DNA of 64,000 bases from Halichondria panicea. Lineage: Eukaryota; Porifera; Demospongiae; Suberitida; Halichondriidae. The translations under genes and the position numbers were made by a program. The stretch is from positions 5,152,169 to 5,216,168 of the forward strand of contig NC_087386.1 of the NCBI RefSeq assembly GCF_963675165.1, given 5' to 3'. The notes under the pieces were generated by a model, which worked only from the letters and a program-made list of their open reading frames with translations, was not told the origin of the DNA and searched no databases. This document shows positions 24 to 22,004 of the stretch, one piece after another; the first letter of the stretch is position 1, and the number at the start of each line of letters is the position of its first letter.

Positions 24-840
24 CTTTTTTTTTAGTTTTCTTTCTCCAGCATATACAGATTCCAGCACAGCAGATCAGAATGATCATCAGTATGAGTGTG
101 AACCCTCCAGCTGGCACCGTCACTCCAAGACAGGCTGCAAATCCTAAGTTTGTTACATTTAACTCACCACGACATAGTTCTAGTTGAGTGGGTGTTGCTG
201 ACGGAGTCATAACAGGAGATATTGGCGTTACGATTGATGACATGGTCTGTAGTGAAGGAGTTGGTGTAACTTGACAAGACGAAGAATTGTCTACTACTGC
301 GCAAACTGGACTCCGTTGATAATTAACACTTGAACAACCATTTCCATTCAAGCTTGTATTGACAGTAATATTCACATATGCTGATGGGATGAAGCAAAAC
401 CCGTCAGCTGAGATTTGACAAAAGTAAATACCACTGTTTGAAGAATTGATGCCATGAATAGTTAGTACATAATTGTCTCGAAAGAGTCCATTGATTGGAG
501 AGTTAGAAGAACTAAGTGCAATTTGGGCGTACATCATAGAACTTTCATACCTATCAGAGATATCCTCGACTATAGATTCAATAATTCTGTACCACTTTAA
601 TGTCGCCATTGAATTGTTGTTACTATCACGTGGAGCATATACTTCACATTTTAAGACAGCAGTACCACCTTCTGACACATAACAGTCACTGTTGTTGCCG
701 GGTACTGTCTGATACCAGTAACAGCATCGCTCTGTAACCAAAACTCAATGCATTACTTTTGTAGTCTAACAATAAATGTTACCTGAACAGTTCTGTCCCA
801 TTGATGAGGGTACAAGTAGCACTAGCAGGAACAACAACAT
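24..840 (-). CDS. Ig-domain transmembrane receptor, partial (3' tail exon outside window)
   Basis: Predicted cell-surface receptor. Exon 1 (840-783) encodes a signal peptide beginning MLLFLLVLLVPSSMGQ. A 51-base intron follows, then one exon (731-24) with the whole ectodomain and membrane segment. The Ig-like (V-type) fold is visible as CCYWYQ, LKWYR and NSGIYFCQ around the conserved Cys/Trp/Cys. A Cys-containing stalk (VNYQRSPVCA, SSCQVTPTP), a Ser/Thr/Pro region and a hydrophobic helix near GFTLILMIILICC follow. There are many N-x-S/T sites. The exon ends in phase 1 at a GT donor just after a basic stop-transfer stretch, so the cytoplasmic exon must lie left of position 1. It is the duplicate of the gene at 6382-8437. 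The second Ig Cys motif reads YFC where the paralogues have YWC. The ligand is unknown. Confidence 0.8.
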
Positions 841-1913
841 TATTTTACTCACAGCTATGCTAATATTATCGGCTTGGCAGTGAGCCTCGGTAGTATCTTT
901 AAATGTGAGTATCTATTGGTTCCTTTGGTAAAGTCCAGGTCCATAGCTAATATAGAACATACCGAAAGACATCATTCCTATAATCATAACAGCATATCTT
1001 AGTCAAAACAAACAGCTTATACTCACTGTAACTTATTAAGAAAACATGCATCACATTGACATACTCAACACACTTACCTGGTACATACATAGTGAGGCTA
1101 CTGCAATCTTTTATAGTAATGGAGACTGTGTTATTTAGTTTGCATGATTGTGCAAAACACAAATAGCTTCACAACGTATAAAATGTTTGCAGTACTGTTT
1201 CAGTTTCACTATGCACAGGCATGCATAAGCACTGTTACAGTAAACTGTACACAAAATGTTAGTAATAACAGGTGGTGAGAACTATCTATTTCTGCAAGGT
1301 ACACACATAATTTAGAACTGGCAACATGGTCATCTTTAATAGTTTGGTTAAAACTCCAGTCTTTGTGATCCAGCTGATGACAGACTACACAGGGGGTGCT
1401 CTCATTACAGGGGAGCATGTGAATTAATTGGTAAGACAGGGATATAGCTTGCTCCCCTCCCCCCCACACACACAGGCACCCTCCCTCTGGATTACAAACG
1501 TATTGGAGCTTGGCATAATTGTTACGGTAAGCAACGAAGTCTCTACTGTTAAAATGCATTTCTACCACAGCGTCGTGATCCTTACAATCAGTATGCTAGC
1601 ACCTTCACTTTGTGAGACGTAGCTGATCCTACTACATGCAAAGTAAGGGAGGTTTCTACTTGGCCATGCATGCAGGGACATACGCGTAGTTTGCCCAGTG
1701 CCTTGCTTCCACACTGACACCCTCCCTCTACTAGATCATGTATAAAGACAGAATTTAACAAGCATGAGCAAGCAGAGAACATCGTAATAAGCTGTCACTA
1801 TTATGCTGTCAAATTTTTTACTTAGTTTTTGCATTTGTTGCGGAATATCATCACCATAGTTTTGTACACTGTAATTCCTCTATATAGGAGTATAATTACT
1901 TCACACTTTACAG
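841..1913. other. Spacer between divergent Ig-family segments
   Basis: No convincing gene is visible. The stretch is shared with 8438-9504. It contains a pair of degenerate direct repeats of about 140 bases (around 1370-1510 and 1620-1750) that share gctgatgac-type and acaccctccctct-type words. Splice-like signals occur at 1470-1525 (an acceptor after a pyrimidine run and a gtaag donor), but no reading frame survives in both duplicate copies across successive candidate exons. Confidence 0.4.
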
Positions 1914-2572
1914 AACACATGCATTCAATGTATATCCCAGAACATCAGCTAATTCAGTGAACAATACGTTATGTGAAAGGAGAGAGTTTTCTGAAATGTA
2001 CTATGCTGCTATCGGAGTCCTTTCTTGTGTAACTGGGATCCTCGTGATATCTCAAGTGGTCACAATCACAGTATTTGCTGTAGCTTGGAGAAGACAAAAA
2101 AGAAACTTCCATCAACAATTACAAAGAAGTAAGAGTTCTTTAACAGGACATTTTCACAAACTTGTACTAATTTTTACAACCTTGCAACATTAACATAATT
2201 ATGTACCCATGCAGTGCATACGTCGGCTTATAGAGCTAAGAAACATACTGAGTATAATTAATAGAGTAAACAGTTATAAATGTTCCACACTACACATGCA
2301 CAGACAGGCCAGAGCTGAAAGCAAAACGATGAACAAATGCTAAGAAGAATCAAACTGATATAAGTGAAGACCCTCCAATAAAAGACAAAGGGAAATACAA
2401 TCGCGCATCTAGTGAACCGACTTTAAATTTACAAACTTTTGAAGTGGAGCACGTGAGCTCAGCTACAGTTGGTACTAATGAGTACACTCAGTCAATGGCG
2501 AGGGAGAGGAAGTACGAGGCTATTGATGTCACGAAAACGGACTATGTGCAGATGTACACTTCACGGAGTTAA
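1914..2572 (+). pseudogene. Decayed transmembrane and tyrosine-tail exons of an Ig-family receptor
   Basis: Two candidate exons (1914-2128 and 2322-2572) match the open exons at 9505-9720 and 10068-10309. The first encodes a juxtamembrane segment, a hydrophobic helix (YYAAIGVLSCVTGILVISQ) and a basic RRQKRNF stop-transfer. The second ends in KYEAIDVTKTDYVQM and a short tail before a stop. Compared with the 9505 copy, this one lacks a base near 1935, which shifts the frame upstream of the helix. It also reads TGA where the other copy has TGG at about 2330. It therefore looks inactivated. No ectodomain exon is visible upstream on this strand. Confidence 0.6.
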
Positions 2573-3084
2573 CTTACGGCACATACTCAATTATAATTAT
2601 GCATTTGCAAGTGTACTTTACCACAGCAGCTCAGTACAATAGCACGCAAGCTTATAATTATTATACGCAATATTATGTATAGTACACTTTTTACGTAGGC
2701 ATAATAGATGCCATACGTAATAATTACTTTATGCACAGCTATAATAATAATTATAGTCTACTTATAATTATGCTTGTCAATTTAGTCGATCTGTGTCATT
2801 GTACTTAGGAACCTGGATTGTCTTTCTCTCTTGCACTTTTCACATCCACTAAGTCCTGATTTATGGTGATCATGCTCGTTTGTTACTCCCAAAGCTCTCC
2901 AGTCAGCCACTATATAATTATAGTGAGTAGAAATTAGAGTACCAGTAGCTATGTATACATTAAAAAGAGCAAGACAGTTATTTTAGCCGTGCAGATACGA
3001 TACGATTTTTGTAATGTTAGTGCTAGTCTAATCATACTTGCCATTACTGTGTACATGTATATAATAGCAGGGGTAGAGTGATTG

Positions 3085-3125
<41 letters not shown>

Positions 3126-3546
3126 CACAAAAATGAGCTGTTTGAGCGAACTAGACACTTTCATGCATGCATGGGCTGCTTTAACTGCTAATGAGACAGT
3201 AGTTAGGCATGAAACTTTTAGGCGATTTTCGAAGGCGACAAAAACACTGTTTTCTAATCGTCGCTTTATAGATTCACGATCATTCCCCATGCATAATTGT
3301 ATCTGTTTTTCCGCTGTGCACATGCATTAAAGCTCAACTCGCAGGACTAAAGTACTTCATTCAGGTGCTATTGATATTTATTTTCTAGAAGCCATGACAT
3401 TGTCAGATATCTCTACGTATGTACCTCGTGGTAAACACACACAATAAGGCCTTCGGTACAAAATGATTGCTAAAGAGTATGGGAGTGTTGTAAATCTAAC
3501 TAAGTAGGAGTTCAATCGAACCACGGAACACCTCTAAAAGTGTTTT
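2573..3546. other. Intergenic, AT-rich with a microsatellite
   Basis: No gene is seen. The sequence is AT-rich with repeated taattata words and continues the duplicated block up to 3346. It includes the GT tract at 3091-3122. Short ORFs across the tract are repeat translations. Confidence 0.5.
3091..3122. repeat. (GT)n microsatellite
   Basis: About 16 GT units. The equivalent tract in duplicate copy B (10822-10884) is about twice as long, so it changed after the duplication. Confidence 0.95.
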
Positions 3547-4749
3547 TTAAAGTTCATTCGATACACTATACACACTAATGTAGTCCACTTTCGTTATGTC
3601 AATTGCCTCGTACGACTGTGTTTTGTTTTTGGCTGGGGTAGTAGTAGTCAGGTTTGCTCCTTGAGATGAAGATGGCAGAGAGTAGTAAGGATCCTCGACT
3701 GGTCCACCATCATTTGGATGTTCCGCTAATATTGTAGCAGCTCCTTTATCTGCATGTGTAGATAAGCATGACATTGTATAGATAAGCTAAAACATGCAAT
3801 GCAACATGTTATGTACATTAATATTCAGGTATGTTAATGTCTTATCCCCGCGAGCTTACTTCTGCAAGTTTCACACTGGTTCTTCTTATCTCGTCTCATC
3901 CAGGCCAATGCAAAGATGACAATAGTGATGAGTAGTGCCACAGCTAGCAGAGCAACGATAAATGATAGTGAACCAACCAACACTGAAGAGTTGGTTGGTG
4001 ATGATGTCGGGATTCGAGGAATGGCTACTGGAGATATTAGACTAGTTAACGCAATGTTGGCCATAACTGTAGGAGTGGAATTGTTCACCAAAAAGGGAGG
4101 AGTTGGTGTAACTTGACAAGATGACGGATTGTTTAGTGCGCAAACTGGACTCCGTTGATAATTAACATTTAAACAACTATTTCCATTCAAGCTTATATTG
4201 ACAGTGATATTCACATATGCTGATGGCATTAAGCAAAACCTGTCAGCTGAGAGATGACACCAGTAAACACCACTGTCTGAGGAATTGATGCTGCGAATAA
4301 TTAGTTTATAATTGTGTCTAAAGAGTCCATTGATTGGAGAGTTAGAAGAATTAACTGCAATTGTGGCGAGCATCATAGAATTTTCATACTTATCAGAGAT
4401 ATCCTCGACCACAGATTCACTTCTGTACCATTTTACTGTTGCTGTTAAATTGTTGTGACTATCACGTGGAGCGTATACTCCACATGTTAAGACAGCTGTA
4501 CCACCTTCTGACACATGACAGTCACTGTTGTTGCCAGGTACTGTCAGATACCAGTAACAGCATTGCTCTGCATGAATGATCCAATGGCAAAAGTGAAATG
4601 ATTAGCTCTAGCTTATTTGATTACATAGCATAATTTATCATGATAGCAAACACACCTGAGCAGTTCTGAGCTAGAGTGTATTGAAACAGAGCTAATCCTA
4701 TAAAGACTAGCAGCTGTTGCCAAACTATCCTGCTTTGTGCAGCTGCCAT
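3547..4749 (-). CDS. Ig-domain receptor with short ITAM-like tail
   Basis: Complete three-exon gene (4749-4656, 4567-3860, 3749-3547), 334 residues, phases agreeing at both junctions. Exon 1 is a signal peptide starting MAAAQSRIVWQQLLVF. Exon 2 carries the Ig domain (CCYWYL, VKWYRS, DSGVYWCHL), the Cys stalk (VNYQRSPVCA, SSCQVTPTP), a Ser/Thr/Pro segment and a membrane helix (SFIVALLAVALLITIVIF) followed by basic RRDKK. Exon 3 is a 67-residue tail with YYSLP and then YEAIDITKVDYISV, a YxxI-x6-YxxV arrangement that matches ITAM spacing although the second motif ends in Val. Known biology: ITAM-type tyrosines recruit tandem-SH2 kinases such as Syk. That role here is inference. The tail is related to those at 2322-2572 and 10068-10309. 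The signal exon is of the same type as in the pseudogene at 5216-6109. Confidence 0.85.
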
Positions 4750-5215
4750 ACTCTTTTATTCTGTGAAGTGATAAGTAGATTTACATATACTACACGTACC
4801 TTTTACGGCAATTGCTTATCAAAATGTTGACTTATTCAATGTGGTATGCAAAACGGAACTGTATATAAGCCTTATACAGTCCCGTTTTAAGTCAACATTG
4901 GAGTGTTGATATGACACAAACAAATCACTTAAATTAAGTACTTTATACATCGACAGGGTGGTCCACCACAGACTAAAGTGCATATAGGGGCTCATACACA
5001 ATGATTTGCAATGTTTTTGTAACTACAAAAATAGTTATGAGAGATGTAGGTGGTTACAGAACATGTATGTATTCAGAATAATGTCGTGTATTAAATAAGT
5101 CGTGTATTTGCTACGAGTTAAAACAATTGCATGTAACAAACAGTGTAATTTCAAATCTTTCTATTACAGACAATACAATGTGTCTGTAAAGATTGATCAA
5201 TTAGTCAGTGTGTAT
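4750..5215. other. Intergenic, nothing recognised
   Basis: AT-rich sequence upstream of the 4749 start, probably holding its promoter and the 3' end of the neighbouring pseudogene. No conserved motif or reading frame was recognised. Confidence 0.4.
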
Positions 5216-6109
5216 CCATACTTCATGTACGTCTGTCAGCTCATCAAAAGGGAATGTCTCAATCGGAGAAACTTCTCTTCTGTGCTCCGGTTCATCCTCT
5301 AAAACTTTCAGTGCAGTAGGGAGAATATCATATTGTGGGTCATCTTTTTCCCTTCCTCAATTCTCGATTGATATAACTGAGAGCTGTTCTTAGATTTAGA
5401 TTTCTTGCTGGCTAGAATTGTTATAAGAGTACACCATAAGCCCAACAGTTGTGTTTGGCTTGTGTTTAGGAATAGGTGGAGTCTGTTCTGGCTAGTTTGA
5501 AGTGGTGGGGATGGTGGTACCGTTTGAAACAGCTTCCTCAAGAACATGTGCTAACCTGTGATAACAACAAGACGGAATGGTTACTGCGCAAACTGGACTC
5601 CGCTGATAGAACATTCATCTACATGTACATTCATGCTTGTATAAGTAATATTCACATAGGCTGATGGGATGAAGCAAAACCCGTCAGCTGAAAGTTGACA
5701 CCAGTAAATTACCACTGTCTGAAGAATTGATGATACGAATGGTTAGTTTACAAAGAGTTCATTGATTGTAGTGCTAAAAAAGTGCAATTTGGGCGAACGT
5801 ACAGAATTTTCATACCTTCAGAGATATTCTCGACCACAGATTCGATGATTCTGTACCACTTTACTGTTGCTTTTTTGAATTGTTGTGACTATCACGTGGA
5901 GCAAATACTCCACATGTTAAAACAGCAGTACCACCTTCTGACACATGACAGTCACTGTTGTTGCCAGGTACTCTCTGATACCAGTAACAGCATCGCTCTG
6001 AATAAATGAGTAGCTTTAACTTATTACATATTTCACCTGGCAGTTCTGAGCAGAGATAATTATTATAAAGACTGCATGCCAAACTCATCCTGCTCCGTGC
6101 AGCTGCCAT
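5216..6109 (-). pseudogene. Chimeric Ig-receptor pseudogene
   Basis: Exon 1 at 6109 starts MAAARSRM like the gene at 4749, but small deletions destroy the hydrophobic signal core. The next exon keeps CCYWYQRVPGN and VLTCGVFAPRDS, then shifts frame near 5875 at an A-rich run and carries several stops. At about 5563 the stalk sequence is joined directly to sequence matching the second half of the long tail exon of the 6382-8437 gene (5216-5560 matches about 6392-6740). The membrane helix, the intron and the first half of the tail are missing. The locus therefore combines an ectodomain of the short-tail gene type with a tail of the long-tail gene type. No functional product is expected. Confidence 0.75.
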
Positions 6110-6381
6110 AGTTCTTATTTTTCAGTGCAAATGATAAGTGTAATCCCTTTTACACATTGTTTATTTTTGAATGCCGCTTTGAAGTGTGTAAGTCAACATT
6201 GTATAATGTGGCTATGTACACACAAAAACTCTGCAACGATCTCGAAAGTTACGATCACATGCATGCAGTGACAGAGAAAGCTGTCTTAATCCACTATTCA
6301 TGCTACACAATACATTATACACAAAATTATTGTTGCATGTAACAAACGGTGTCTCATTGTATACAAGGGTTGCATGATCAA

Positions 6382-8437
6382 TTAGTCATTGTGTATCCAC
6401 ACTTCATGTACGTCTGTCAGCTCATCAAAAGGAAATGTCTGAATCTGAGTAGCTTCTCTTCTGTGCTCCGCTTCATCTTCTAACACTTTCGGTGCAGTAG
6501 GGAGAATATTGTATTGTGGATCATCGAATACCCTCTCTTTGCTTTCCTCAATTATTGATTGATGTAAGGGCTGATCTTGGATTTTGATGTTTTGCTGGCT
6601 GGAATCATTGTAATTGAGTACACCATAAGCTGGAACAGATTTGTGTTTAGGGATAGGTGGAGTCTGTTCTGACTGGTTAAAAGTGGTGGGGAAGGTGGTA
6701 CCGCTTGAAACAGCTTCCTCCAGAACATGATACTCACAGCTATCAGATGATTCATTTGCCAGTGTATTCTGTCGCTGAGCTGACTTTACTACTCTGCTGC
6801 TAAGATTTTCATATTGGTTGTCTTGAGATGTTTCTTCGACAGAGTTTCCCATCAATGTCAACGTGTGTGCATGTGTTCTGCTGTAGCAATGATCCTCTGT
6901 GGAGCCCTCGCTGGTAACAGCTTTAATGGTGTCAGCAATGCTAACAAGAGAGTGATCAAGAACATTGTATTGATTCTGGGATGAACGGCTAGTGGAAAAG
7001 CTATCGAAAGAACTTTGTGGTTGTTGTGACAGTTTATTATCACAAACATCTTCATAATATTGTGAGCTTTCAATTTGCAGCTGCTGTTTCGTATTGACAG
7101 CAGTTTTGTCTTTGTCTTGACCCACAGCCAAAACCATTTCATACATGTGTGGTTCACCCTGATCTCCTTCTAGGTTTATTTTTTGGAGGGCATTGGTTTT
7201 TTCTTGATGCTCCAGCTCACTGTACTCATGATCTAGTGTTCTTTCATGATCACTGACTGGCTCTTCAGTGTGTTCATCAGGTCGTGGGTTTTCCACATCT
7301 TCGTACTGGTGGACTTTCCTTCTCTTGAGACCCACAACTTGAGCATTAGATCTATCTGAGGTATGATCCATTTCAGTTTGAGCCACACTCTGCACAGCTG
7401 CAATGTAAGAGTGAAATAGTTAAAAACAAAGTATGTATATTATGCTGCAGTTCCTAGTGACAGGGATTGTGTGGTGCTAAGTTAATTAATTTTAACAAGT
7501 TGTGGGTTCCCGCTACAAAAGGTAGTTTTACAAGAACCTAAGACCACAACAATTACAACAACAATGTGCTTTTATAAAGGCTTCTCCAAATCCATTCACC
7601 TTTTTTTCTAGTTTTCTTTCTCCAGCATATACAGATTCCAGCACAGCAGATCAGAATGATCATCAGTATGAGTGTAAACCCTCCAGCTGGTACTGTCACT
7701 CCAAGACAGGCTACAAATCCTAAGTTTGTTACATTTAACTCACCACGACATAGTTCTAGTTGAGTGGTTGTTGCTGACGGAGTGATACTAGTCATAACAG
7801 GAGATATTGGCGTTACGATTGATGACATGGTCTGTAGTGAAGGAGTTGGTGTAACTTGACAAGACGAAGAATTGTCAACTACTGCGCAAACTGGACTCCG
7901 TTGATAATTAACACTTGAACAACCATTCTCATTCAAGCTTGTATTGACAGTAATATTCACATATGCTGATGGGGTAAAGCAAAGTTCGTCAGTTGAGAGT
8001 TGACACCAGTAAATACCACTGTCTGAAGAATTGATGCCATGAATAGTTAGTTTATAATTATCTTCAAAGAGTCCATTGATTGGAGAGTTAGAAGAATTAA
8101 ATGCAACTTGGACGGTCATCATAACATTTTCATACCTATCAGAGATATCCTCAACCACAGATTCAATGTTTCTGTACCACTTTAATGTCACCATTGAATT
8201 GTTGTTACTATCACGTGGAGCATATACTTCACATCTTAAGACAGCAGTTCCATTGTGTGACACATGACAGTCACTATAGTTGCCGGGTACTCTCTGATAC
8301 CAGTAACAGCATTGGTCTGTATAATTATAGCCAAAATTCAATGAATTACCTTTGTAGCTTACATTACAATAAATGTTACCTGAACAGTTCTGTCCCATTG
8401 AGGAGGGTACCAGTAGCACTAGCAGGAACAACAACAT
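6382..8437 (-). CDS. Ig-domain receptor with long multi-tyrosine tail
   Basis: Three exons (8437-8380, 8316-7600, 7397-6382), 596 residues, phase 1 at both junctions. Signal peptide MLLFLLVLLVPSSMGQ; one V-like Ig domain (CCYWYQ, LKWYRN, DSGIYWCQL); Cys stalk; Thr-rich segment; membrane helix (GGFTLILMIILICCAGICI); basic CWRKKTRKK. The last exon encodes a 338-residue hydrophilic, probably disordered tail with nine YxxPhi motifs: YEDV, YSEL, YEMV, YEDV, YNVL, YENL, YHVL, YGVL, YNIL. YENL also fits the Grb2-type YxN pattern. Most lack the Ser/Ile/Val/Leu at -2 of a strict ITIM. The 63-base first intron is in frame without a stop, so retention would add 21 residues. Start chosen at the ATG before the hydrophobic core. 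The ectodomain is a duplicate of 24-840. Signalling function is inferred. Confidence 0.85.
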
Positions 8438-9504
8438 TATTTTACTCACTAATATTATCAGCGAGGCAGCGAGGCAGTTTGCTTTAAATGTGAGTATCTA
8501 TTGGTTCCTATGGTAAAGTTAGAGAACATACTGAAAGCATCATTCCTATATTAATCATAACGGCATATCTTAGTCAAAACAAACAGCTTATACTCACTGT
8601 AACTTATTAAGAAAACATGCATCATATTAATTGACATGCTCAACACACTTACGTGGTACATACATAGTGAGGCTACTGCAATCTTTTATAGTAATAGAGA
8701 CTGTGTTATTCAGTTTGCATGATTGTGCAAAACACAAATAGCTTCACAACGTATAAAATGTTTGCAGTACTGTTTCAGTTTCACTGTGCACAGGCATGCA
8801 TAAGCACTGTTACAGTAAACTGTACACATAATAACAGGCAATAACAGGTGGTGAGAACTATCCATTTCTGCAAGGTACACACATAATTTAGATCACTGGC
8901 AACATGGTCATCTTTAATAGTTTGGTTAAAACTCTAGCTAGTCTTTGTGATCCAGCTGATGACAGACTACACAGGGGGTGCTCTCATCACAGGGGAGCAT
9001 GTGGATTAATTGGTAAGACAAGGATATAGCTTGCTCCCCCCCCCCCACACACACACAGACACCCTCCCTCTGGATCACAAACGTATTGGAGCTTGGCATA
9101 ATTGTTACGGTAAGTAAGCAAATAAGTCTCTACTGTTAAAATGCATTTCTATCACAGCGTCGTGATTCTTACAATATCAGTATGCTATAACACCTCCAAC
9201 TTTGTGAGACGTAGCTGATGACCGACTACATGCAAAGTAAGGGAGGTTTATACTTGGCCATGCATGCAGGGACATACGCATAGTTTTCCCAATGCCTCGC
9301 CTCCACACTGACACCCTCCCTTTACTAGATCATGTATAAAGACAGAATTTAACAAGCATGAGCAAGCAGAGAACATCGTAAGCTGTCACTATTATACTGT
9401 CAACTTTTTTACTTAGTTTTTGCATTTGTTGCGGAATATCATCACCATAGTTTTGTACACTGTAATTCCTCTATATAGGAGTATAAATACTTCACACTTT
9501 ACAG
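8438..9504. other. Spacer between divergent Ig-family segments (copy B)
   Basis: Counterpart of 841-1913. It contains the same two degenerate ~140-base direct repeats (about 8945-9090 and 9210-9340) and the same splice-like signals near 9040-9110. No gene could be supported. It presumably includes the promoter of the 8437 receptor. Confidence 0.4.
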
Positions 9505-10309
9505 AACACATGCATTCAATGTATACTCCCAGGACATCTGCTAATTCAGTGAACAATACGTTATGTGAAAGGAGAGAGTTTTCTGAAATGTACTATGCTG
9601 CTATTGGAGTCCTTTCTTGTGTAACTGGGATCCTCGTGATATCTCAAGTGGTCACAATCACAGTATTTGCTGTAGCTTGGAGAAGACAAAAAAGAAACTT
9701 CCATCAACAATTACAAAAAAGTAAGAGTTCTTTAACACGACATTTTCACAAGCTTGTACTAATTTTTACAACCTTGTAACATTAACATAATCATGTGCCC
9801 ATGCAGTGCATACGTCGGCTTATAGAGCTAAGAAACATACTGAGTATATATAGAGGTTATAGTTATAGACTAATCACAAGGTTTGTATGGATATACAGTG
9901 CATTCAAACCCGAGGGCTTTGATTCCCAATCATTCCTATGTAATAGCAGGTTCTGTATCACAGTTATAAACCATTGTATACCTTAGCAACCACATAGCAA
10001 CGGGCAAGAATAAACAGTTATAAATGTTCCACACTATACACATGCACAGACAGGCCAGAGCTCAAAGCAAAACGATGGACAAATACTAAAAAGAATCAAA
10101 CCGAAGACCCTCCAATAAAAGACAAAGGGAAATACAATCGCGCATCTAGTGAACCGACTTTAAATTTACAAACTTTTGAAGTGGAGCACGTGAGCTCAGC
10201 TACAGCTGGTGCTAATGAGTACACTCAGTCAATGACGAGGGAGAAGAAGTACGAGGCTATTGATGTCACGAAAACGGACTATATGCAGATGTACACTTCA
10301 CGGAATTAA
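9505..10309 (+). CDS. Transmembrane and ITAM-like tail exons of an Ig-family receptor, 5' part not found
   Basis: Two open exons in agreeing phase (9505-9720, donor gtaag; 10068-10309). The first encodes a short extracellular stretch with N-N-T and Cys, a membrane helix (AAIGVLSCVTGILVISQ) and basic RRQKRNF. The second encodes a tail of about 80 residues that ends KKYEAIDVTKTDYMQM plus seven residues. YEAI and YMQM are six residues apart. YMQM fits the YxxM PI3-kinase p85 SH2-binding pattern. The tail is homologous to exon 3 of 3547-4749. No signal peptide or Ig exon is visible upstream on this strand before 8437, so this is either the 3' end of a gene with distant 5' exons, an orphaned cassette, or a recent pseudogene. 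The 1914-2572 duplicate is broken. Confidence 0.5.
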
Positions 10310-10815
10310 CTTACGGCACATACTCAATTATACCTTGCATAATTATACATTTGCAAGTGCACTTTACCACAGCAGCTCGTTACAATAGCACGCAAGCTCA
10401 TAATTATTATACGCAATATTATGTATAGTACACTTTTTACGTAGGCATAATAGATGCCATTACTTTATGCACAGCTATAATAATTATTATAGTCTACTTA
10501 TAATTATGCTTGTCAATTTAGTCGATCTGTGTCATTGTACTTAGGAACCTGGATTGTCTTTCTCTCTTGCACTTTTCACATCCACTAAGTCCAGATTTAT
10601 GGTGATCATGCTCGTTCGTTACTCCCAAAGCTCTCCAGTCAGCCACTATATAATTATAGTGAGTAGAAATTAGAGTACCAGTAGCTATGTATACATTAAA
10701 AAGAGCAAGACAGTTATTTTAGCCGTTCAGATACGATTTTTGTAATGTTATTGCTAGTCTAATCATACTTGCCATTACTGTGTACATGTATATAATAGCA
10801 GGGGTAGAGTGATTG

Positions 10816-10885
<70 letters not shown>

Positions 10886-11393
10886 ACACAAAAATGAGCT
10901 GTTTGAGCGAACTAGACACTTTCATGCATGGGCTGCTTTAACTGCTAATGAGACAGTAGTTAGGCATGAAACTTTTAGGCGATCTTCGAAGGCGACAAAA
11001 ACACTGTTTTCTAATCGTCGCTTTATAGATTCACGATCATTCCCCATGCATAATTGTATCTGTTTTTCCGCTGTGCACGTGCAATTAAAGCTCAACTCGC
11101 AGGGTGAATGCATGAGCATCTAGTTCTTTATATCTTTGCAATTTAAGTTCTTAGCTTAATTCTTGAACTAAAAATAGGGTCCATACAGACCATACATAAT
11201 TATAAGTCTTTGATATGACTATTTTTAATGAACCTCCCATCAGAGGACAACCTCCTAAAAGAGGACAAAAGGTTTGCTCCCAAAGTGAAAGTCCTTTATT
11301 CGGAGGTTCCACTGACTGTATAATTATAGTAGCAAGTTTATATAATTATTATACGTACTCCTTATAGCCCTACTATTTTTAAAACATACTTAC
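10310..11393. other. Intergenic with microsatellite; expected 3' exon of the 13465 receptor not found
   Basis: Continuation of duplicated copy B to 11103, then unique AT-rich sequence. The minus-strand receptor upstream ends in a donor at 11393-11388, so at least one 3' exon is expected around or beyond here. No tail-like reading frame was recognised. Confidence 0.4.
10822..10884. repeat. (GT)n microsatellite
   Basis: About 31 GT units; expanded relative to the matching tract at 3091-3122. Confidence 0.95.
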
Positions 11394-13465
11394 TTCGCCT
11401 GGCAAATTTTAGATCTCTCTTGTCCAGTGCCCTCAAAACACACTTAACGAAACACAGCAGTGGGACACTCAGTATACAAATCAAAATCACAGTTGATACA
11501 CTCGCTAATGCGATTATAATCACTTCTGGATTCGTACAACACTGAGCTTCCTTCTTATTGTTACCCCCTTCAATCGTCATTCCTAGTGTGGTCGGAGTGG
11601 GTGTGGGAGTTGGTATGCTTATTTCACAGCATTCTGGTTCTGCTAGAATTTCCCAGTAGGTGGAGTCGTACCGACTTGATGGGCATGGGGTGGTCACTCC
11701 ATTTGGCTGGTATAAGTGCAGGGTTTGTGACTGTGAGAATTCAAAAATTCCAATATTTGAGCTCCCTGGTGGATGCTCTAATATACACCAGTAGTAGCCG
11801 AAATCTGATGTTCCTGTACTAGAAATGGTAAGCTGTCTCTCATAACCATTGATACCACTCAGCTCAGGAGGAATCCGGGGGAGATTTGATGATGAATAGT
11901 AGCGTTCAGTTGCACTGTATTTGCTGGGAGAGGCAGTGATATTTATCCATGTGCTTGGAACCATGTCAGCATTCGGAGACCAATAGAATTCAAAAGAGGG
12001 TCTTGTTGCATTCGTCTCTGCCTCGTACATTAGAGCTGTGCAGTCGACGTAACTTGATCTACCGACAGGATTGCACGCAGGAGTGTACTCTGCTCTTGGT
12101 ACAATCCAAAAGAAGTAATCACAGTCTCCTGCGGTAAATGCATGTATAGCTCAACTATAGGGTTTATTATTAACGATAATTGCATGTGCATGTACTATAT
12201 AGCTCAGCTATAGGATTATAGTAGACTCTTGTTAATCTGGCCACCCTTGGGACAGCTAGTGCAGCTTGGCCAGAATAGCGAGGTGACCGTATTTCAGAAA
12301 ATTGCCGCGGCTAAAACAATCTTACCTCTAATGACTAATTTTGCAGTTCTGTCTTGAGGACAGTGTGGGTTTTAATGCAGGTTCTGTAAACGACGAACAA
12401 AACAAAACAAGGAGTTTTAGAAAAATAGTTTAGTTGCATGCAGTCAGACGTTGAAGAGAGTAGTTTGTGTACTTAGGCTCAGTGGATGGTCTTGGGAGGT
12501 GGAGGTTATCATAATTATGTCCACGAGTTGATACCTCGAGCTTGTCTATGCTCAGAAGTTTTGGTGAAAAGTTCTTGCATGCATGTATACTTATACAGAG
12601 GCGTAGGAAGCAATTTTACATTGGTCAGGCAATTATTACTATGAACTTTGAATAATGAAGGGGATAATGAATCATTCTGCCCAATTTTATCAGCCAAAAT
12701 TTCATATTCTGTTGTAATAAACGTATTGAAACCTAGTTTGGGGCAGCCAGTACGTGGCCAGTATACGGAATAACAAGTGGCCGCAGTAAACATCTAGCTA
12801 GCGATTCGTGCCAAACCAAATGCATGGCCGGTATATCAAGGTGGCTGTACTTCAGAGAGCCAGAATGGCGAGAGTCTACTATAATCATCATTGCTTTGTA
12901 GGATTGCACATTGGTGGTACTAGCTTACAATTATTTCTCCAACACCGTAAATGATTAATTACCTGTATCTATTAACTAGAAAGCATCAAACATTATTATG
13001 CAAACTTTGATCAATTCGCAAATATAAAATCGCAAAACCTACATAATTACACACGATCCTTGCCAGAATGTAATAGATGGATCGCAAAAGGTCCATTTTT
13101 CTGCTGATTTGGCTTACCAGGGGGGGTAGCTATGGTGGCCCTGGTCAGGTATGCTGTGAGCATGAGAGGGGTAGCTATGGTGGCCCTGATCAGGTATGCT
13201 GTGAGCATGAGAGGGGTAGCTATGGTTGGCTTTTAGCAAAGGTTTTTCACCAGCAAAATAATTATTCATTAATTTTAGACATGGCCATAGATAATTATAG
13301 CAGATATCTTCTCTTTTTCTGAGGGAGTTTGCACAAGAGGTTGTAATATGACAGTATCAACTCACCCACTTGTCCTTTTGCAATATTTAGAGCCATCATC
13401 AAGAGCAGAAAAATGGCCATTGCAGACAGGAAGCTTGTTGCCCATGCGCGTCGATCTGTTGTCAT
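11394..13465 (-). CDS. Divergent Ig-like transmembrane protein, 3' end unresolved
   Basis: Exon 1 (13465-13366) encodes an N-terminus with hydrophobic core MAIFLLLMMALNIAKGQV, a likely signal peptide. It splices in phase 1 directly to 12128-11394. Exon 2 carries an Ig-like region (VDCTALMYEAE, FEFYWSP, then SDFGYYWCILEH as the second-Cys motif), a Pro/Thr stalk (SIPTPTPTPTTLG), paired CC residues, a membrane helix (VIIIALASVSTVILICILS) and basic KRDLKFARR. It ends in phase 1 at a gtaagt donor, the same architecture and phase as the receptors to its left, though the sequence is only distantly similar. If that donor were ignored, 15 more residues would follow before a stop. No tyrosine tail was found. 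Its start codon is 71 bases from the carrier gene start on the other strand. Confidence 0.65.
12214..12886. mobile_element. MITE-like element with 16-base terminal inverted repeats
   Basis: Ends gattatagtagactct (12214-12229) and its exact reverse complement (12871-12886), about 670 bases apart. Similarity extends inward imperfectly (atctggcc versus gagccagaat). No transposase reading frame is present. The ends are compatible with a TA target duplication, but the exact boundary is ambiguous. It lies in the intron of the 11394-13465 gene. Confidence 0.6.
13118..13225. repeat. Short outlier array of the 45-base minisatellite
   Basis: About two and a half units of the same 45-base repeat that fills the carrier's first intron (13726-14540), in the same orientation but upstream of the carrier's first exon, inside the intron of the minus-strand Ig-like gene. 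Confidence 0.9.
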
Positions 13466-13536
13466 AGATAAAGTCTTTATTTTCAGTTGTAAACAGTCGA
13501 CCCTGTACCGTTTAATAATTAATAAGGGAAGGGAAG
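13466..13536. promoter_or_regulatory. Probable bidirectional promoter
   Basis: Only 71 bases separate the start codons of the minus-strand Ig-like gene (13465) and the plus-strand mitochondrial carrier (13537). Both 5' untranslated regions and any core promoter must overlap here or sit in the opposing first exon. No TATA box was identified. The pairing is inferred from position. Confidence 0.45.

Positions 13537-22004
<8,468 letters not shown>

Follow-up and report, generated by a model that had tools for sequence, protein, structure and literature searches.

A Sponge Receptor Gene Cluster with Paired-Receptor Architecture and V-Domain Exchange between Two Tail Classes

Results

The stretch analysed in this study (the window) comprises 64,000 nucleotides of the genome of the sponge Halichondria panicea (contig NC_087386.1, here C10; C10:5152169-5216168) and forms the right edge of a cluster of about 125 kb (C10:5.038-5.163 Mb) of predicted membrane receptor genes with one variable-type (V-set) immunoglobulin (Ig) domain each. 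Judged from the genomic sequence, this is a real and unusual sponge receptor cluster, which combines a paired-receptor architecture with a demonstrated exchange of the predicted recognition domain: V domains have moved between two putative signalling modules, in the manner of vertebrate paired receptors.

The genes consist of a signal exon ending in phase 1, one exon holding the V-set domain, the stalk and the membrane helix, and a cytoplasmic exon. Splice junctions were read from the DNA sequence, the donor of the Ig exon in the window genes only. In g5156B (3547-4749) and g5160C (6382-8437) the signal and Ig exons each end in phase 1, as had been proposed in an earlier reading of the window made without database searches (the sequence-only reading); a GT follows both exons, and the tail exon starts after an AG. 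The Pfam V-set score was 33.7 bits for g5156B and 29 bits for g5160C (curated cut-off 26), and a PDB sequence search with the V domain gave CEACAM1 as the best match (E 6.5e-5), no single stretch of which passed alone; the domain was assigned to the Ig fold because of these two results. The same reading had described the two genes as similar ectodomains with opposite tails, which agrees with their 54% identity across the Ig exon (tblastn). Both are intact, as it had stated, but they are not the only ones, since g5152C (24-840) is intact as well, its long tail lying to the left of the window at C10:5150980-5151989. The exons of the three genes are as follows, in window positions.

8380..8437, minus strand: signal exon of the long-tail gene g5160C, ending in phase 1
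7600..8316, minus strand: V-set Ig, stalk and membrane-helix exon of g5160C, ending in phase 1 (V-set 29 bits)
6382..7397, minus strand: long cytoplasmic exon of g5160C with nine YxxPhi motifs
4656..4749, minus strand: signal exon of the short-tail gene g5156B, ending in phase 1
3860..4567, minus strand: V-set Ig, stalk and membrane-helix exon of g5156B, ending in phase 1 (V-set 33.7 bits)
3547..3749, minus strand: short cytoplasmic exon of g5156B, YYSL...YEAI-x6-YISV
783..840, minus strand: signal exon of the third intact gene, g5152C
24..731, minus strand: V-set-like Ig, stalk and helix exon of g5152C (V-set 28.5 bits at C10:5152532-5152849)

Fifteen Ig exons were aligned, 12 from full-length copies and 3 from pseudogenes, and identity means were computed on the 12 full-length copies (30 within-class and 36 between-class pairs). 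The V part (columns 1-500) showed a mean identity of 0.85 within tail classes and 0.85 between them, and the stalk and helix (columns 505-770) of 0.90 within and 0.39 between. In all eight cross-class pairs profiled, identity fell in those alignment windows that begin at column 480, past CQVTP and inside the Ig exon; therefore, the V domain is the part that moves, and stalk, helix and tail travel together. The stalk/helix type matched the type of the next downstream tail exon in the 12 full-length copies. Of the tail-exon exchange suggested previously, the exchange between classes is thus retained and the tail exon as the moving unit is not.

In the tree of V sequences, the short-tail g5142B and g5128B grouped with the long-tail g5140C, g5126C and g5074C (support 100/100, common 9-base gap), and the long-tail g5135C grouped with g5156B and g5148B (support 99/99); several other forks were without support. 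The approximately unbiased (AU) test rejected a single clade of short-tail V sequences with p 3.2e-9 (15 rows) and 9.5e-9 (12 rows), and forcing them together cost 170 or 163 log-likelihood units, respectively. The 15-row V tree contained four tail-label changes, at least three of them forced by starred branches. Tail type shows no visible clustering on the V tree, since 143-153 of 500 shuffled labellings did no worse than the true ones; the stalk/helix tree needed one label change, and only 0 and 2 of 500 shuffles were as low. The synonymous divergence (dS) of the V part was 0.045 for the cross-class pair g5140C-g5128B; among complete genes, it was 0.135 for the cross-class pair g5156B-g5152C versus 0.267 for the same-class pair g5126C-g5152C. 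These low cross-class values, together with the V trees, indicate that the V likeness is due to shared descent of DNA and not to convergence.

The long and short tails are two unrelated types. The nine YxxPhi motifs previously counted in the long tail were recovered, among 12 tyrosines (shuffle mean 2.4, P 5e-5). In the five long tails compared, all 12 tyrosines were invariant, the hydrophobic residue at +3 was kept in all nine motifs, and 68% of positions were invariant. The short tail carries YEAI-x6-YISV and three YxxPhi motifs in total, which is weak by count alone (P 0.03 versus shuffles). Of the pattern YxxI-x6-Yxx(V/M) given for it earlier, the V form is found on g5156B and the M form only on two plus-strand elements described below.

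At its left end, the cluster contains a more distant long-tail family, with the tyrosine pattern kept in part (27/90 residues identical, E 5e-7 in a single comparison). Further long tyrosine-rich tails, distant relatives of the long tail, were seen at L018:6277-7671 and L018:8249-9373 (minus strand), the latter with a near-copy at C10:5079662-5080783. Upstream of L018:8249-9373 lies a different short membrane cassette, and DNA 91% like this cassette, with broken frames, precedes a short tail at C10:5094.7 kb as well. These features may represent a second set in which both tails are used.

Three whole-genome protein searches (131.46 Mb, 39 contigs) were made, with the long tail, the short tail and the V domain. 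At least 12 long-tail matches (from 15 scored candidates, E up to 0.01) and at least 14 short-tail matches (from 15 candidates, E up to 0.1) were found, all within C10:5.038-5.163 Mb, and at least 27 V-domain matches (from 34 candidates, E up to 0.01), of which 26 fall into the cluster and one lies at C6; these counts are lower bounds and refer to exon pieces, several of them from one broken copy. The survey of linked paralogues called for in the sequence-only reading therefore found both tails on homologous ectodomains, confined to this cluster. The cluster itself, placed by that reading at 24..13465, is real but reaches about 114 kb to the left of the window (tblastn map of the joined chromosome stretch and genome searches), and the Ig gene at 11.4-13.5 kb that it had included is of a different type. 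No family match was found in 5.098-5.124 Mb on the tblastn map, and other genes are interleaved with the receptor copies along the cluster.

Among the 12 full-length copies checked, all parts are open in four, g5160C and g5152C with the long tail and g5156B and g5131B with the short one. All parts are open in g5126C too, with a tail about 20 residues shorter than full. The remaining seven carry stops or frameshifts or, in the case of g5140C, have a shortened tail and no intact signal exon. Tandem duplication, as anticipated, is evident from a recent event in the array (6.6 kb at 93.8%).

The poriferan origin deduced beforehand from the letters of the window is borne out by three silicatein-type active sites at C2:656-668 kb, each within a Peptidase_C1 match. 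They were found with a pattern which we take to be that of the silicatein active site, and the reversed control pattern gave 0 matches, which points most naturally to the genome of a siliceous sponge. The same genome holds same-strand exon sets consistent with SH2-SH2-phosphatase (C3:8404573-8406287), SH2-SH2-kinase (C9:5255365-5259157) and three SH2-kinase genes (C2:7249-7256 kb); from their domain order, they may be called SHP-, Syk- and Src-like, respectively. Tyrosine-phosphatase exons are very many, with at least 176 matches (150 of 361 candidates scored), most of those listed being on C4.

The other features of this part of the window are given below.

5204..6110, minus strand: pseudogene with a signal-like start, a V remnant and the 3' part of a long tail; ends approximate
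1996..2572, plus strand: membrane-helix segment and tail YEAIDVTKTDYVQM; possible relict
9588..10309, plus strand: second copy of the helix-plus-tail element
11394..12128, minus strand: distant Ig-like, stalk and helix exon of a different type, donor in phase 1; Ig match below the cut-off
13366..13465, minus strand: signal exon of the distant Ig-like gene, ending in phase 1

The pseudogene had been described as a mixture of both types. Its V remnant is nearer to the short class (102 bits with the short-tail ectodomain query and 80.5 bits with the long-tail one) and the adjoining 3' part of a tail is of the long type, so the mixture holds for these parts; its signal belongs to the short class by eye only, and the signal query gave no match there. 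Two similar copies are located outside the window. All three join remnants of a V domain and of a long tail and have similar flanking DNA, which suggests that a single event was spread by tandem copying.

The tail of the plus-strand elements has a YxxPhi count within chance (P 0.22), and the paired motif of both copies ends in M and also misses the strict activation motif considered below. No V exon was found for either copy. A reading of these elements as DAP12-like adaptors was rejected for now, the helix having no acidic residue (by eye), no signal exon reading cleanly in both copies, and the tails of the two differing by 6 non-synonymous versus 0 synonymous changes.

For the distant Ig-like gene at 11.4-13.5 kb, with its sub-threshold Ig match, a tail exon was sought and no convincing candidate was obtained. 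Outside the cluster 27 V-set matches were found, and most of the 20 that were read look, by eye, like parts of other Ig proteins. A lone V-domain relative with the same V, stalk and helix exon layout and 29-30% identity lies at C6:5553812-5554261 (L022), followed downstream by a candidate tail with YTKL and YARV.

Repeated kinase genes (Pfam was applied to one of them) with ankyrin-like repeats (by eye) occur among the receptor copies at C10:5.049-5.061 and 5.100-5.113 Mb (L019, L020, L011-L013). Another duplicated membrane-protein type is present inside the cluster at L021:5659-6636 and C10:5119103-5119996 (plus strand), the latter giving nothing above a Pfam cut-off. At 13100-14530, a minisatellite-like array, its unit judged by eye to be about 45 bases, adjoins and enters a gene resembling an EF-hand/mitochondrial carrier (by eye).

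Discussion

The evidence for and against is about evenly balanced for the view that the cluster encodes tandem type I membrane receptors with a single V domain, in which one recognition pool is common to two unrelated stalk/helix/cytoplasmic modules. Duplication with gene conversion or unequal crossing-over would maintain the similarity of the recognition surfaces in the two classes, and one ligand set might then be read by two outputs. Src-like kinases could phosphorylate the tail tyrosines; the paired motif of the short tail might recruit Syk-like proteins, and the long tail, through its numerous single motifs, SHP- or Grb2-like SH2 proteins. That the short tail is activating and the long tail modulating or inhibitory is a guess. 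The likeness to vertebrate paired families drawn in the sequence-only reading thus stands for like ectodomains on two unrelated tails, and the motif evidence is ambiguous as to which tail may activate and which inhibit. An immune or allorecognition role, the function of the family and the polarity of its tails are put forward as hypotheses. The fuller proposal, a true sponge paired-receptor system in which gene conversion maintains a single V repertoire for two tyrosine-signalling modules of opposing effect, possibly for allorecognition, is tentative. If it were true, a natural killer (NK)-like signal balance would be placed, or would have been independently invented, close to the root of the animal tree. 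A sponge family in which two tyrosine-signalling modules draw on one V pool would carry paired-receptor logic over to sponges, and the cluster offers concrete genes for testing self/non-self or microbe recognition in these animals.

Several observations weigh against the view of one recognition pool common to two modules. The motifs were judged by the usual definitions of the immunoreceptor tyrosine-based inhibitory and activation motifs (ITIM and ITAM), the latter being YxxL/I-x6-12-YxxL/I. None of the nine YxxPhi motifs of the long tail is a strict ITIM, and the second motif of the short tail, VDYISV, fits the ITIM consensus. The x6 spacing of the short-tail pair is ITAM-like, yet its second motif ends in V, so that the strict ITAM is missed. 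No D, E, K or R was seen in the helix core of either class (translations, by eye), and no charged helix residue for an ITAM adaptor, as in activating paired receptors, was found in either. The clearest swapped V domains (g5142B, g5128B and g5135C) belong to genes with frameshifts, and many receptor copies are broken. The ratio of non-synonymous to synonymous divergence (dN/dS) of the V part was 0.31-0.99, below 1 in 21/21 pairs. Finally, a young array recombines anyway, which cautions against over-reading the V exchange.

A tandem adhesion or allorecognition family (Alr-like, homophilic), with both tails recruiting SH2 or endocytic adaptors without opposition and V sharing as mere duplication, is somewhat unlikely. 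YxxPhi motifs also suit AP-2 sorting and generic SH2 sites and are thus compatible with it, as is the long tail without a strict ITIM. Moreover, cnidarian and tunicate allorecognition genes bear ITIM/(hem)ITAM motifs, according to the cited passages of PMC12065747. By itself, however, this explanation leaves two unrelated modules on one V pool unexplained.

Neutral dynamics, in which a young, decaying tandem array recombines between copies and V sharing is functionless, are improbable. They would fit the seven of 12 checked copies that are broken or without a part, the recent 6.6-kb duplication and V dN/dS values as high as 0.99, but complete genes of both classes remain, the 12 long-tail tyrosines are invariant in the five tails compared, and the V/stalk border of the identity drop is the same in 8/8 cross-class pairs. 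In addition, long-tail dN/dS was 0.42-0.55 in 8/10 pairs (0.72 and 0.96 in the others). The dN/dS of the short tail was 0.45-0.94 over 10 pairs. The V set consisted of 7 of the 12 full-length copies (g5148B, g5142B, g5135C, g5096B and g5074C were excluded because stops or frameshifts interrupt their V part), and the tail sets of five copies each (the truncated g5140C and fragments were excluded from the long-tail set). The V domain and both tails therefore appear to be under weak purifying selection; diversifying selection on the V domain was dropped, dN/dS being above 1 in 0/21 pairs. Splicing across neighbouring genes, by which phase-1 junctions on one strand would let one V/helix exon join either tail, is very improbable, for although the junction phases fit, the stalk/helix type agrees with the next downstream tail in the 12 full-length copies, as fixed pairs predict.

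Comparison with Known Systems

The window and its surroundings hold two features of vertebrate-type paired receptors, namely linked homologous receptors whose ectodomains are alike and whose signalling parts differ, and ectodomain sequence that has been exchanged between the classes. Literature searches on sponge Ig receptors with tyrosine motifs, limited to open-licence PMC papers, yielded no sponge family of this kind. The receptor tyrosine kinase of Geodia cydonium is likewise a sponge receptor with an extracellular Ig-like domain, but it has its own kinase, and tail classes are not described in the cited part of that source (PMC12018476).

The Hydractinia allorecognition complex (Alr) is a clustered V-set family in a non-bilaterian, with candidates bearing ITIM/ITAM motifs (PMC11999971 and PMC12065747, in the passages cited). 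As described there, Alr proteins have V-set and I-set domains, whereas the sponge family has one V domain. The Botryllus fester co-receptors (FcoR) resemble the sponge genes in their variable-type Ig domain and in long tails with ITIM, hemITAM or core YxxI/L/V, and some FcoR loci swap motifs through alternative splicing (PMC12065747, same passages). They also have sushi and C2 Ig domains, and in the sponge it is the V domain that is swapped, in the genome.

The nearest analogue seen is the primate pair CD300A/CD300C, in which gene conversion keeps the ectodomains alike while the tails differ. In the cited portion of PMC12447643, the two are linked genes with a single IgV-like ectodomain, homogenised ectodomains and unlike tails, as the sponge genes would be. 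CD300A is described there as inhibitory and CD300C as activating, with a charged glutamate in the helix, whereas the sponge helices are uncharged in both classes; unlike CD300A/CD300C, both sponge classes bear tyrosine motifs in their own tails.

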